NCBI GenBank assembly: GCA_016185705.1
Contig: JACPMZ010000006.1
Coordinates: 1 to 47,014 of the forward strand
Reading direction: 5' to 3'
Length of the DNA: 47,014 bases
DNA from: Candidatus Woesearchaeota archaeon
GTDB lineage: Archaea > Nanobdellota > Nanobdellia > Woesearchaeales > UBA10216
Shown: positions 42,347 through 47,014 of the stretch, in pieces
Layout: the number at the start of each line of letters is the position of its first letter
Numbering within the stretch: the first letter of the stretch is position 1
Program-made: the position numbers and the translations under genes
Notes under the pieces: generated by a model
The model's database searches: none
What the model saw: the letters and a program-made list of their open reading frames with translations, nothing else
Told to the model about the DNA's origin: nothing

Positions 42347-43567
42347 TTACTCGGGTATGTCATGCCAAAGCCCCCGCGCCTCTCCGATAACAAAAATGCT
42401 TCCTGTGACCATAATTGTGCTGCCTTCTGCTTCCTTCAGCGCTTTCCTGACAGCTTCCTTTACGTCTTCAATTGCCTCTGCGCTCTTATTGTGCTTTTTT
42501 GCCTCTTTCCTTAGCAGCTCGCAGTCGCTGCCGCGGTGCTTCGCCTTCGTTACAAGCACTTTCTTCGCCAAAGGCGCCAGTATTTGTATCATTTTTGCAG
42601 TGTCTTTGTCGCTTGAAATCCCTATTACCAGAACTATCCCGTTCTTTTGGCTTTTTATGTAGTCGGCAACAGTCAGTGCTCCTGAAGGGTTGTGCGCTGC
42701 ATCCAGGATTACTCTTGGCTTTTCCTGCATGACTTCCAGCCGTCCGGGCCATTTGGTCTTTTCTATTCCATTCCTGATATCGCTGCTGCTGATTTTAATT
42801 CCGGCTTTGCCAAGATTTGTAATGGCAGCAGCTGCTACTGCTGCATTTCTTTTCTGATGCTCTCCAAGCAGCGAAATCCTGCCTTCGTAATCTTTTTCAA
42901 CTACTGTTGCTTTTGCATTCCTGCTGCCGCAGATTTTCAGGAGCTGCTGCTGTATCTGCGCATCCTTCTCCCCTATTACCGCTGCGCTTCCTTCTTTTAT
43001 GATTCCTGCCTTCTCGGCAGCTATTTTTTCCTTTGTATCGCCAAGGTATTGTGTGTGTTCAAGCTCAATATTCGTTATGACTGCAACCAGCGGCTTCACT
43101 ATGTTGGTTGCATCCAGTCTGCCGCCCATTCCTGTCTCAATAACTGCAAAGTCGCAATTTCTTTTCTTAAAATGCAAAAATGCCATGGCAGTGGTAAACT
43201 CAAAATATGTTGCTTGCATGCCAGCAGCTTTCATTTTGTCTGCTGCTGCTTTTACTTCATCAAAAACTTCCACAACTTCATTCTCGCTTATCCATTCGCC
43301 GTTAACCTGCATCCTTTCACGAAAGCTTTGCAGGTGCGGCGAAGTGTACATCCCGGCTTTATAGCCGGCTTCTTTCAAAATAAAGCTGCACATCGCAACC
43401 ACGCTCCCTTTTCCGTTTGTTCCTGCCACATGAATTGTCTTATATTCGTCCTGCGGATTCCCGAGAATTTCGCATAATCTGCTGATGTTCTCAAGCCCCA
43501 GCTTTATGCCGAAAAGCTCAAGCTTGTCAAGGTATTTTAGGACTTCATTGTAGTTTGTCAGTGCCAT
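42347..43567 (-). CDS. folC: Folylpolyglutamate/dihydrofolate synthase (FolC, Mur-ligase family)
   Basis: 406 residues. The ATP-binding GTNGKGS loop is at residues 49-55, preceded by TIHVAG. TSPHLQSFRERMQVNGEWIS, ETGMGGRLDATN and ITNIELEHTQYLGDT are classic FolC motifs, and DAAHNPSGA marks the C-terminal domain. The enzyme adds glutamate to folates (or related pterins such as tetrahydromethanopterin precursors in archaea). The start overlaps the 3' end of the recombinase pseudogene by 10 bases, so both once formed an operon. The 96-bp gap on its 3' side holds nothing I recognise. Confidence 0.92.
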   Translation of the reverse strand: MALTNYNEVLKYLDKLELFGIKLGLENISRLCEILGNPQDEYKTIHVAGTNGKGSVVAMCSFILKEAGYKAGMYTSPHLQSFRERMQVNGEWISENEVVEVFDEVKAAADKMKAAGMQATYFEFTTAMAFLHFKKRNCDFAVIETGMGGRLDATNIVKPLVAVITNIELEHTQYLGDTKEKIAAEKAGIIKEGSAAVIGEKDAQIQQQLLKICGSRNAKATVVEKDYEGRISLLGEHQKRNAAVAAAAITNLGKAGIKISSSDIRNGIEKTKWPGRLEVMQEKPRVILDAAHNPSGALTVADYIKSQKNGIVLVIGISSDKDTAKMIQILAPLAKKVLVTKAKHRGSDCELLRKEAKKHNKSAEAIEDVKEAVRKALKEAEGSTIMVTGSIFVIGEARGLWHDIPE

Positions 43568-44117
43568 AAGTCATCTACCGGACTTGCTATCCTGGCTATG
43601 GTGCTTGTTGCCACATGCGTGTAAATTTGGGTTGTTTGCAGCTTCGCATGCCCGAGCAGTTGCTGTATATGCCTTATATCCTGCCGAAATCAAAGCTTTC
43701 TGTCCTTAAATCAACCAGTTCGGACACTCTCAAACCCCTTCCGTAAAGACACTTGAGCACCAGCCTGTGTTTTGCATTGTTGGCAGCGCCTATTATCCGC
43801 CTGACTTCCTCTTTTGAAAGCACTACATGAAGGTTTTGCTCTCTTTTAGGCCTTGCAACTCCCTCAATCTCCTTTCCAACAGCATTCACAAAAAAGAATT
43901 TTAGCGCGCTTATTGCCAAGTTAGCAGTTACGTTTGTATAATGTTTAGCGTTTATGAGGTAGGAGATATACTGCTTTACGTCATCAGAATTTGCATCTTG
44001 CGGATGTTTTGCAGAATACCCCAGAAAGTCGTTTACAAAATGCCTGTAAGACTTTTTCGTCTTGCTGCTGAAGCCCCTTGCATCAAGCTCCAGCCCAAAC
44101 CTCTCAAGTACGTCCAT
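43558..44117 (-). pseudogene. Tyrosine recombinase (XerA/IntI-like), internally deleted
   Basis: The N-terminal SAM-like domain (SSKTKKSYRHFVNDFLGYSA ... LAISALKFFF) and the first catalytic segment LYGRGLRVSELVDL (catalytic Arg) are intact up to SFDFGR. The frame then jumps at about 43673 and continues out of phase with DIRHIQQLLGHAKLQTTQIY and THV (catalytic His and Tyr), stopping at 43558. Compared with family length, about 90 codons holding the catalytic Lys and the HxLR box are missing. It is leaderless from ATG 44117 with TATA TTTTTATACT. It points away from the cassette array, as intI does in integrons, but the missing part is the one that separates IntI from XerA. Confidence 0.8.
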
Positions 44118-44170
44118 CTGAAACCAAACAACCAAATAGTATAAAAACTTATCTATATAGGTAGTTCAAC
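44118..44170. other. Recombinase promoter and first recombination core site (attI position)
   Basis: Between the recombinase start and the first cassette lie the recombinase TATA and, at 44164-44170, the core-like box GTTCAAC followed by GCAAT. The same GTTCAACGCAAT word ends the first attC-like site (44846-44857). By position this is where an attI site would be. Confidence 0.5.
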
Positions 44171-44259
44171 GCAATTTGAGAACCTGCTTAATACCGCCCC
44201 CACCCAGACTGAAGCGCGCTTGCAAAACTATTAAAAACTACAAAAATACCAGTAATTTT

Positions 44260-44652
44260 ATGGACAGAGTTTTGGAATTAGACATCGCAGAAATATACTG
44301 GAATCTTACATCACTAAAAGATGCAGTAATCCGCACCTTAAAAGAAAGAGATTTATATAACCGTAACAATTTCTATAGAGGTTTTAATAAGGGTTTTGTC
44401 GAGCAGGTTTTAGCGTTAGGAAGCGAGAATCTTAGTGATTGGGGAGTATATGCTCTTCCTGAGTCTCATTTATCCATTGATCCTGATCCGAGATGGATTA
44501 ATCCTCTTAGCTATGCTAGAGCATCAGGAGCTCTTGCAGTTTATAATGGAGATATGTTAAGATTGGGCTCTACTTGTATTGATTGGTATGAATTTGTTGA
44601 TCAGACGAAAAGATCTGAATCAATATCTACTATTTTTTCATTAAAATGGTAA
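44260..44652 (+). CDS. Cassette 1 protein, unknown (130 aa)
   Basis: 130 residues, soluble, mixed alpha/beta by eye: MDRVLELDIAEIYWNLTSLK, IRTLKERDLYNRNNFYRGF, LGSENLSDWGVYALPES, then NPLSYARASGALAVYNGDML. No family is recognised. ATG 44260 is preceded at about 27 bases by ATTAAAAAC, an acceptable TATA region inside the cassette, so it can probably be expressed on its own. Its codon choice is AT-rich and unlike the chromosomal genes. Confidence 0.7.
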   Translation: MDRVLELDIAEIYWNLTSLKDAVIRTLKERDLYNRNNFYRGFNKGFVEQVLALGSENLSDWGVYALPESHLSIDPDPRWINPLSYARASGALAVYNGDMLRLGSTCIDWYEFVDQTKRSESISTIFSLKW

Positions 44653-44693
44653 AACGATATATCGCACGCTTCCATCCCCCACCCTAAAATAGT

Positions 44694-44852
44694 GCAGGTT
44701 CTCAAACTTTTTCGCTATCGCTCAAACCACGCCTTGCAGGCTCTCACTTCGCTCGGGGCGTATAACAGCGATTTAGAGGAAACCTCGTTGCACTTCGGTT
44801 TCCAAAATTTTGCTCCGCTACGCAAAACTTCGTATAGTCGCATATGTTCAAC
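44694..44852. repeat. attC-like site of cassette 1 (R'' 44760-44766, R' 44846-44852)
   Basis: R'' is GTATAAC and R' is GTTCAAC. Next to the boxes, GCGATTTA (left) pairs imperfectly with TATAGTCGC (right). The variable middle has its own perfect stem GGAAACC/GGTTTCC. Upstream of R'' lie a GC-rich stretch ending CACTTCGCTCGGGGC and GCAGGTTCTCAAA (44694-44706). The latter is the exact complement of TTTGAGAACCTGC at the cassette's 5' end (44175-44187). Confidence 0.7.
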
Positions 44853-44915
44853 GCAATCGTGGGCTTCGGGGCTCAACGAAAGTTTATTAAACTTCAATAA
44901 AGAAAAGTTAATATT

Positions 44916-45413
44916 ATGGATGATTTTAATATCTGGGGAACGCCAAGTAAAAAGAAAAAGAAAAAACAAGATAATATTTTCGGCGGCGGTTTTGATTTAA
45001 GTCTAGGTCCAAAAAGAGGAAGAACTAAGAATCCTTTAGACTTTGGTGTTGGACTTGGTCCTTCCAGACAAAAAGAAACTGAACGTGATACTCGCAGAGC
45101 TTTTTCTCAAACTCAAAGAAATGAAATATGGGACCGACAAAAAGGCAAATGTGCAGGTTCGCATTGTGGTCATAAACCATTACTACGAAGCGCTACACAT
45201 TACGACCATATTATTCCTTGGGAAAAAGGTGGTAAAACTGTTGTTAGTAATGGACAGGCACTTTGTCCTACATGCCATTCTGTGAAATCTAATAAAGATA
45301 GATTAAAAAATGTGGATAAAAAAAGAAATAATAAGAATAATGATAATTTTTTTGGTGGTAATCTATTTGGACCACCGCCGAAACGTTCTAAAAATAATCC
45401 ATTTGGTTTATAA
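44916..45413 (+). CDS. Cassette 2: HNH endonuclease
   Basis: 165 residues. A Lys-rich start and Gly-rich linker precede an HNH domain (residues ~80-130): RNEIWDRQKGKCAGSHC, HYDHIIPWEKGGKTVVSNGQ, ALCPTCHSVKSNKD. The four cysteines form the zinc site, and His in YDHI plus downstream Asn and His are catalytic. The tail FFGGNLFGPPPKRSKNNPFGL recalls short-peptide motifs seen at the start (NIFGGGFDLSLGP). HNH proteins are frequent cargo of mobile arrays, with defensive or homing roles. The target cannot be told. Confidence 0.88.
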   Translation: MDDFNIWGTPSKKKKKKQDNIFGGGFDLSLGPKRGRTKNPLDFGVGLGPSRQKETERDTRRAFSQTQRNEIWDRQKGKCAGSHCGHKPLLRSATHYDHIIPWEKGGKTVVSNGQALCPTCHSVKSNKDRLKNVDKKRNNKNNDNFFGGNLFGPPPKRSKNNPFGL

Positions 45414-45417
45414 TAAA

Positions 45418-45577
45418 GCCCCTTCGCCCACGACTTCTTCGTCGGGCTTCGCCCTCCTCGACCACGTTGCACTCTCACTTCGTTCGGGGCGTTGAACAGG
45501 CATTTTACGGTTCGGCTCTTGCAGAACCTCACCCAAATTTCCCTGCGGGAAACTTCGTAAAATGCCATACGTTATAC
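45418..45577. repeat. attC-like site of cassette 2 (R'' 45491-45497, R' 45571-45577)
   Basis: R'' GTTGAAC and R' GTTATAC bracket perfect 11-bp inner arms GGCATTTTACG (45499-45509) and CGTAAAATGCC (45556-45566), an 87-bp site. Upstream, GCCCCTTCGCCCACGA (45418-45433) pairs with TCGTGGGCTTCGGGGC at the cassette's 5' end (44857-44872), apart from 3 central bases. Confidence 0.75.
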
Positions 45578-45581
45578 GCAA

Positions 45582-45650
45582 TTCAAAAAATATTTTTCTT
45601 GAAGTAAAATGAAGATAGTCTTTCAAAACATGGATAAATTTGATTTTTTC
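45582..45650. repeat. Left arm of a long inverted repeat in cassette 3
   Basis: TTCAAAAAATATTTTTC (45582-45598) and ATAAATTTGATTTTTTC (45634-45650) are exact complements of 46797-46813 and 46749-46765. The two arms, 69 and 65 bp, thus form an imperfect inverted repeat flanking the gene, outside the attC-like site. Confidence 0.7.
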
Positions 45651-45736
45651 TTTATTATAGAGGGGGATAATAATGTGTTTTCTCCACTCCGTTCCGAAAA
45701 CGAATTATTTATAAATTTCAATCTTTTAAGGATACT

Positions 45737-46705
45737 ATGAGCAAAAAATTTACTTTTATACACCCGATCTTCGTCCCGGGACGTCGTGTGTTCTCCCTTG
45801 TTGTGTTGACCTACTTAGGATGGTTGGTTTTCATTAATGCACTCATGTTTCTGCCGGCATTGGGATTGCTACCCGACAATGCATTATCTGCTATGGGACA
45901 CTTTGGAAAATTCCTTAGTACTGGAGATACGCACGATCTTATTCACGAACTAGTATTCGCTCTCATTGTGGGAACAGCCGCAATAGGACTTCTTAGCCAG
46001 CTTTGGAAGCCAAAAGAAAAATTTGCAGGTCAGTTGGTAGCACTGATTGTGTGGGGGGCAATGATTTTGACCGCCGCTTTCACAAACAATTGGGTTCCGC
46101 AACCACTCTTTATTATTTTTGGCGGATTGACGATCTTAGCAACTGTTTTCCACCCCGCCAGACGCGATCTCTTAAATTGGTTTAGTGTCGCGACATTGAA
46201 CAAGACATTACTCACACTGGTTATTGCAGCGGCGATACCACTGCTTGCGTTTACGTTTACGAATATTGGATTGCAGACCGCCGACGGAGGAAACTCTGGA
46301 TTTTTTGAACATAATCCACCTACGTTCCATGGTGGTGATTCGGCGGCTAATCAAGAACCATCACAGAATCAACCATTAGACTCTATAAATGAAGTAGACA
46401 CAGACAATGAGGCTGACCACGATCAGAAACATATCGCCCTTGGTCACTATCGCAACATTGCCGTCCTCGCTTTACTCATCATATTGGTAGGAATTTTGGC
46501 GAGCTTCAAACCCGGCGATTGGCGACTCGCTGCATGGGTCGCTGGTTTCCTTCCAATTTTGTTTGGACTCGCATCGATTATACTGCCGAATGCTGAATCA
46601 AGCCTCGGTGTAATTTGGAGTCTTGTTGCAATTGTTTGGGGTGTTGTATTCGTTGCAGTAGCTGAACTAACCAAAAATGCGCATACCAAACATAAAGAAA
46701 GTTGA
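45737..46705 (+). CDS. Cassette 3: multi-helix membrane protein, unknown
   Basis: 322 residues with about eight membrane helices. A first block of helices (VFSLVVLTYLGWLVFINALM, ELVFALIVGTAAIGLL, LVALIVWGAMILTAAF) is followed by a hydrophilic His/Asn/Asp-rich loop (about residues 190-235, HNPPTFHGGDSAANQ). A second block of three helices follows. No family is recognised; the His-rich loop might bind metal. A clear TATA ATTTATAAATTTC lies 27 bases before ATG 45737, so the cassette carries its own archaeal-type promoter. This argues that it was made or adapted in an archaeon. Confidence 0.75.
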   Translation: MSKKFTFIHPIFVPGRRVFSLVVLTYLGWLVFINALMFLPALGLLPDNALSAMGHFGKFLSTGDTHDLIHELVFALIVGTAAIGLLSQLWKPKEKFAGQLVALIVWGAMILTAAFTNNWVPQPLFIIFGGLTILATVFHPARRDLLNWFSVATLNKTLLTLVIAAAIPLLAFTFTNIGLQTADGGNSGFFEHNPPTFHGGDSAANQEPSQNQPLDSINEVDTDNEADHDQKHIALGHYRNIAVLALLIILVGILASFKPGDWRLAAWVAGFLPILFGLASIILPNAESSLGVIWSLVAIVWGVVFVAVAELTKNAHTKHKES

Positions 46706-46748
46706 AAAATGAAATTCACCCCTAACCCCTCTTTCATTTTTCAAAACG

Positions 46749-46813
46749 GAAAAAATCAAATTTATGATTAATGAGGAAAGCCTGATAATTGAGAACGAAA
46801 AATATTTTTTGAA
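46749..46813. repeat. Right arm of the long inverted repeat in cassette 3
   Basis: Contains GAAAAAATCAAATTTAT and GAAAAATATTTTTTGAA, complementary to the left arm at 45582-45650. It precedes the GC-rich stretch and the R'' box of the third attC-like site. Confidence 0.7.
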
Positions 46814-46869
46814 CTCACTCCGCTACGCTTCGTGCCCCGCTGCGCTCTCCTCCTTTCAGTCGTCGGGGC

Positions 46870-47001
46870 GTATAACAGGCATTAACAGGAAACCTCGTTG
46901 CACTTCGCTTTCCCAAATTTTTTGCTAGCTCTGTGTGAGGGATGCCCACACGAGGGCAAACTTTCGAGGGAAAAAACTTCGCTAAATTCTATAAGTTAAG
47001 T
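46870..47001. repeat. attC-like site of cassette 3 (R'' 46870-46876, R' 46995-47001)
   Basis: R'' GTATAAC and R' GTTAAGT; the latter fits the GTTRRRY consensus exactly. The middle contains GGAAACCTCGTTGCACTTCG, shared with the first site (44778-44797), and a stem GTGTG-agggatgcc-CACAC. At 132 bp it lies within the known size range of attC sites. The 13 bases after R' would begin a fourth cassette. Confidence 0.65.
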
Positions 47002-47014
47002 TCAATAATTTTTA

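Follow-up and report, generated by a model that had tools for sequence, protein, structure and literature searches.

Organization of the locus

The window, meaning the whole stretch of 47,014 nt analysed here from a Candidatus Woesearchaeota archaeon, closes with a broken integrase gene, an attI-like site and three cassettes, each ending in an attC-like site. The integrase gene (43558-44135) encodes a tyrosine recombinase that has lost its middle ~90 codons and carries a frameshift. Its Xer-like N-terminal part (43674..44135, minus strand), broken by this internal deletion and frameshift, runs divergently from the array; across the part that both have, it shows 59% identity to a relative's intact protein of 273 aa (G108). 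A C-terminal remnant recognized by comparison with that same relative (43558..43683, minus strand) lies in a different frame and ends in QDIRHIQQLLGHAKLQTTQIYTHVATSTIARIASPVDDLWH and a stop codon. The stretch around the I2 position has been lost through the deletion, and against NF040815, the archaeal XerA profile, the broken gene reaches 107 bits only. Immediately upstream of it lies the attI-like site (44138..44172, plus strand), with the left arm CTTATCTATATAGGTA and the core GTTCAACGC (44164-44172, plus strand), whose motif and place are the same in relatives. This core (GTTCAACGCAAT at 44164) was absent from the initial annotation, in which the first cassette was therefore overlooked.

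The three cassettes and their attC-like sites all lie on the plus strand; the bit scores given here are those of the covariance model R1, described below. Cassette 1 (44165..44846) contains an ORF (44260-44652) without a family match above the cut-off and ends in site 1 (44758..44854, 60.3 bits), whose R arms and L arms are both mismatched (R'' GTATAAC at 44760-44766, R' GTTCAAC at 44846-44852). Cassette 2 (44847..45571) encodes an HNH-domain protein (44916-45413) and ends in site 2 (45489..45579, 75.1 bits), which has an 11-bp L stem without a bulge (R'' GTTGAAC at 45491-45497, R' GTTATAC at 45571-45577). Cassette 3 (45572..46995) encodes a 322-aa membrane protein (45737-46705) and ends in the weak site 3 (46868..47003, 32.8 bits), whose L arms pair poorly (R'' GTATAAC at 46870-46876, R' GTTAAGT at 46995-47001). 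Site 3 adjoins the end of the contig at 47014, so the array could not be traced further in place.

The poorly pairing L arms of site 1 suggest that it is a hybrid, its R'' and L'' apparently from one attC type and its L' and R' from another; homologous exchange or deletion between two attCs could, by inference, be the source of such a site. Elsewhere in the host genome there is a lone weak attC-like site (L184/G000:C2:1145-1277, 30.9 bits) flanked by unrelated genes. Further matches to the core motif in that genome (C4, C14) lie in or beside ordinary genes and were set aside as chance.

Pairing of the R boxes by cassette

The initial annotation held that R'' and R' fail to pair perfectly within a site and that perfect complementarity is found instead across the cassette, as would be expected if cassettes had entered as circles cut after the G of R'. 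The boxes indeed lie where it placed them: two of the seven R bases are mismatched within each of sites 1 and 2, and complementarity across cassettes 2 and 3 is perfect, extending over 9 bp (GTT + 6) and not merely 7 (GCGTTGAAC/GTTCAACGC and GCGTATAAC/GTTATACGC). Cassette 1 violates the rule, its start (TTCAACGC) matching its end (the R'' GCGTATAAC) at four of six variable bases. As two matches among the window's three starts and three ends are also reached by two-thirds of random pairings, the window by itself is no evidence for the rule, and statistics confined to the window were discarded. When the bottom-strand fold of each attC was compared between the circular and the array-context form, as the initial annotation had proposed, the circular form was the more stable for cassette 2 (-25.9 versus -20.0) and cassette 3 (-17.6 versus -13.9); the fold of site 1 (-15.6) is identical in the two forms.

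A pattern built from the three window sites matched 75 loci in the genome collection, mostly from Patescibacteria and DPANN archaea and also from other phyla, together with one viral contig. These loci come chiefly from metagenome-assembled genomes, and some host assignments may be wrong. Many bacterial and archaeal sites are near-identical to one another over ~90 bases. When 29 sites were aligned, an 11-bp L stem enclosing two hairpins emerged, with compensatory changes in 19 of 23 pairs, and from these sites, cut from AAC to GTT so that the variable R bases were excluded, we built the covariance model R1. The model recovered all three window sites at the scores given above and 163 sites across 75 sources, with up to ~7 in one locus (L092, L124). 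It found no site in a class 1 integron and none in the stretches around two true IntI genes (L175, L176), and no relevant Rfam family exists for the sites. At least one R1 site occurred in 109 of 338 genomes of the host's Woesearchaeota order. A single strict site pattern was also run across this order and served as a lead only, most genomes having matched the reversed control equally. A plasmid search using the integrase region gave no match.

Since R1 never sees the variable bases, testing the cassette rule on its sites is not circular. We compared the six bases after GTT with the six before the next AAC in 89 distinct cassettes lying between consecutive sites (an earlier run had covered 69). 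Pairing across the cassette was perfect at all six variable positions in 43 of them, compared with a mean of 4.5 and a maximum of 13 in 5000 shuffles, and pairing with a site's own R' was perfect in 4 of 77. Where the two pairings differ (n = 73), that across the cassette was better in 58 cases, tied in 7 and worse in 8, and the matching box has a sharp edge, the match being 0.79 for position 6 and 0.10 for position 7. A second, archaeal set of 20 stretches, drawn from genomes in the host's order, was fetched later and stood outside model training; it gave 25 perfect cassettes out of 38 (shuffled mean 1.6, maximum 7) and one perfect own-site pairing out of 38. The comparison with further cassettes that the initial annotation called for, run here on related arrays, thus shows the rule being obeyed. 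The same holds for folding, the circular attC being favoured in 60 of 73 informative cassettes (mean difference -3.2 kcal/mol) and, in the second set, in 32 of 36 (-3.8 kcal/mol). Circular cassettes and a cut within GTT are supported by these data, while a cut precisely after the G cannot be separated by sequence from the other points in GTT.

Cassettes of plasmid R388 obey the same rule, and the ACID database states that a cassette's own attC is that of its circular form (PMC2674596). The cassette rule is textbook integron biology and is not itself new; it confirms that the elements are integron cassettes. The novelty resides in the integrase and the sites, neither of which was examined in the initial annotation.

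Two of the window cassettes have counterparts elsewhere. Cassette 2 has a homologue in Candidatus Altarchaeum (L131) that covers the whole unit, both borders included, at 75.6% over 746 aligned nt (cassette positions 1-725). Cassette 3 has a frame, consisting of its first ~145 nt (45572-45716) and last ~180 nt (46702-46877) with inverted repeats, that recurs in 18 other cassettes with mostly unrelated genes, from bacteria, archaea and one viral contig (carriers include L061, L070, L078, L079, L084, L093, L104, L107, L119, L139, L151 and L156). The left arm of the repeat (45582..45650, plus strand) is partnered by the right arm (46749..46813, plus strand), and circularization would place one arm on either side of the attC. 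We rejected a transposon as the source of these repeats; they lie inside the cassette borders, the 18 cassettes sharing them differ for the most part in their genes, and no transposase is encoded in the window copy. Nor could they be used as evidence of pairing: the inverted-repeat ends are present in 19 of 19 cassettes, yet own pairs are no better than cross pairs, and the ends therefore reflect shared ancestry. The shared frame may show how new cassettes are assembled.

Integrases and sites of the related arrays

Where an integrase gene and R1 sites occur on the same piece of DNA, the gene is divergent with the sites on its 5' side in 21 of 23 cases, and again in 16 of 16 in a second set, whose members were chosen by visual inspection; what counted was an integrase and a site on one contig, irrespective of orientation. 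Both exceptions (L162 and L163, one of them from a Spirochaetales genome) have an integrase of a different subgroup on the same strand as the nearby attC and possibly represent an inverted-integrase type. The catalytic residues R-K-H-R-H-Y are retained in all 37 divergent integrases. The I2 domain around patch III, a criterion for IntI, is present in none of these 37 relatives; the I2 region measures 10-15 residues in every one of them, versus 43 in IntI1 and two other IntIs. Consistent with this, the intact G108 protein aligns with archaeal XerA over its full length, and its alignment with IntI4 breaks exactly at the I2 region. Three intact relatives did not reach the cut-off of the integron-integrase profile TIGR02249 (216, 213 and 218 bits versus 265; true IntIs score 507 and 397) and passed that of NF040815 (238, 222 and 231 bits versus 220), a profile that NCBI titles 'site-specific tyrosine recombinase/integron integrase'. 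Whole-genome searches found an IntI above the TIGR02249 cut-off in only two of 49 genomes carrying sites.

In a tree, 26 of 27 other archaeal recombinases formed a separate clade together with this genome's own XerA, and the array integrases fell mostly outside it. They do not constitute one clade themselves (12 changes), leaving a single-clade origin unsupported; repeated recruitment or exchange would be compatible with this, though the picture is untidy.

Close upstream of the integrase, 12 of 21 loci, and 8 of 16 in the second set, have a GTT whose following bases are exactly complementary to R'' of the first site; shuffling gives means of 2.0 and 0.5 and maxima of 6 and 4, respectively. 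The left arm of attI, TATAAAAACCA or TTTAATAGGT ahead of GTT, is TA-rich, and several loci show a likeness between it and the attC L' arm. Of the attC-like sites, 125 of 160 have L arms that form at least 9 of the 11 possible pairs with no bulge, 86 of these perfectly, and allowing a bulge adds at least two pairs in only 11 of the 160. Both attC sites of R388, by contrast, require an L-stem bulge. The extrahelical base in the L stem of a classical attC is thus a criterion not fulfilled here, with the caveat that pairing of the L stem was one of the grounds for picking R1 training sites, so that bulge-free ones are favoured. As I2 is the part of the enzyme that accommodates extrahelical bases (PMC4792948), the joint absence of both is coherent.

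With its integrase deleted in the middle, the window array is probably inactive in cis; and with XerA the sole other related recombinase found in the host genome, the array in this genome is probably frozen. A related integrase from another genus of the same family (G008:C41, L046 9340-9831) has a different internal deletion. Inactivation has thus happened at least twice, unless both deletions, in the window and in G008, are assembly errors. Beside the closest intact integrase (G108:C16, L045 6900-7420) a transposase remnant occupies the expected array position; no R1 site lies in the 20 kb taken there, and R1 sites occur on other contigs of G108.

A probable integron without I2

We consider it highly probable, judging from the sequence, that this region is the start of an integron, with a broken integrase gene, a divergent attI and three cassettes, belonging to a variant, I2-less and mostly bulge-free system. 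Several integron criteria are fulfilled: three attC-like sites in tandem on the plus strand separate the cassettes, the integrase gene is divergent with attI between it and the array (even if the window copy is broken), and the R boxes are complementary once a cassette is circularized (in the window, for cassettes 2 and 3 and not for 1). The classical consensus R' GTTRRRY and R'' RYYYAAC is not fulfilled, in that the window boxes GTTCAAC, GTTATAC, GTATAAC and GTTGAAC deviate from it while keeping GTT and AAC. Cassette-wise pairing, the covarying L stem, the position of attI, the orientation of the integrase, its catalytic residues and the absence of I2 are established by sequence, whereas folding as a single strand inside the cell, the precise point of cleavage, the strand used, catalysis by the adjacent Xer-like integrase and the excision and insertion of cassettes are only inferred. 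Weighing against this explanation, cassette 1 breaks the rule and the array integrases are not one clade.

Under the mechanism we propose, each cassette would once have been circular, its attC folded from a single strand by two stems, one of 9 bp between R'' and R' (GTT + 6) and one of 11 bp between L'' and L'. The integrase would exchange strands inside GTT of attI and GTT of the folded attC. A cassette entering in this way would have at its left end the six bases that follow GTT, and its R'' would lie beside the R' of its neighbour; complementarity would therefore follow the cassette and not the site. The folded strand (~9 + 11 bp) may be read by the Xer-like enzyme much as a double-stranded Xer core site is, and so be joined to attI, the remainder of the insertion presumably being completed by replication as in other integrons.

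Could the arrays instead be moved in trans by a classical, I2-containing IntI, the neighbouring Xer-like genes being unrelated housekeeping or mobile recombinases? The archaeal integrons described so far do have an IntI with its specific domain (PMC9668308), integrase-less arrays (CALIN) are common, and the boxes follow the same cassette rule as those of R388. We nevertheless think this very unlikely, given that a true IntI is present in only two of the 49 site-bearing genomes and no such site lies in the IntI stretches L175 and L176, that the Xer-like genes are divergent and adjacent in 37 of 39 cases, that attI-like sites fitting the first cassette accompany them, and that 26 of 27 other archaeal recombinases and the host XerA fall in a separate clade. 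Somewhat more room must be left, though the chance remains small, for Xer-type recombination of double strands at half-sites (attI ~ attC L'-R'), with the hairpin serving some other end such as transcription termination. The integrases are after all Xer-like and lack a single-strand domain, and the left arms of attI and L' are alike in several loci (TTCGTATAT-like before GTT); but recombination of this kind leaves unexplained both the covariation of L'' with L' and why R'' tracks its own cassette's start over six variable bases.

That the repeats are mere terminators or dispersed palindromes and the box pattern chance is barely credible. The window's two matches out of three are not significant and no Rfam family applies, but hundreds of homologous array sites are known whose cassette-wise pairing is far beyond shuffles and which hold a fixed position relative to the integrase.

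Our preferred reading, an integron lacking I2, has much in common with IntI integrons, both class 1 and chromosomal: a divergent integrase, an attI, tandem same-strand cassettes, an R''-L''-L'-R' attC, R boxes that pair by cassette and a GTT core. It differs from them in an integrase that lacks I2 and fails the integron-integrase profile, in L stems mostly without an extrahelical base, in a conserved two-hairpin head and in an R box of 9 bp of free sequence (GTT + 6) in place of GTTRRRY. Archaeal XerA/Xer (PDB 4a8e; NF040815) shares full-length continuous alignment, the lack of an I2 insertion and the same catalytic residues; the integrases here, in contrast, adjoin attI and cassette arrays, and most fall outside the XerA clade that holds the host XerA. 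A precedent for the proposed chemistry is CTXphi, where an I2-less Xer enzyme (XerCD) acts on single-stranded DNA folded to imitate a duplex, without extrahelical bases (PMC4792948), although CTXphi has neither an integrase of its own nor a cassette array. The archaeal integrons of Ghaly et al. 2022 (PMC9668308) likewise occur in archaeal hosts, including Nanoarchaeota, with attC common across domains and many arrays without a recognized IntI. Their IntIs were found through the IntI-specific domain, a filter that the integrases here would fail; at best, the arrays beside them would be classed as CALIN.

Integron search tools define integrons by the I2 domain. I2 has been treated as necessary for cassette capture and as exclusive to integron integrases (PMC7790495, PMC4792948), and deletion of I2 is cited in PMC7790495 as inactivating IntI1; a working I2-less integron integrase is therefore unexpected. 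The open-licence literature yielded no account of I2-less integrases serving integrons in these groups, and one elsewhere is not excluded. We judge this to be a new integron variant, common in a Woesearchaeota order (109/338 genomes) and in Patescibacteria. With less assurance, we incline to the view that it represents a large unrecognized branch of I2-less integrons in DPANN archaea, Patescibacteria and other bacteria, run by a plain Xer-like recombinase on bulge-free hairpins that mimic double-stranded Xer sites. Such a branch may be the state from which IntI integrons arose, or may reflect repeated independent recruitments of Xer enzymes, and it would also carry the shared cassette frame, with the same ends and different genes, across archaea and bacteria.

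A shared frame with changing genes bears on how new cassettes are made, itself an open question. If I2-less Xer-like integrases do run these arrays, then integrons have been undercounted in archaea and Patescibacteria, the arrays would constitute a concrete vehicle for gene exchange between archaea and bacteria, and the origin of integrons from Xer enzymes would become testable on living intermediates.
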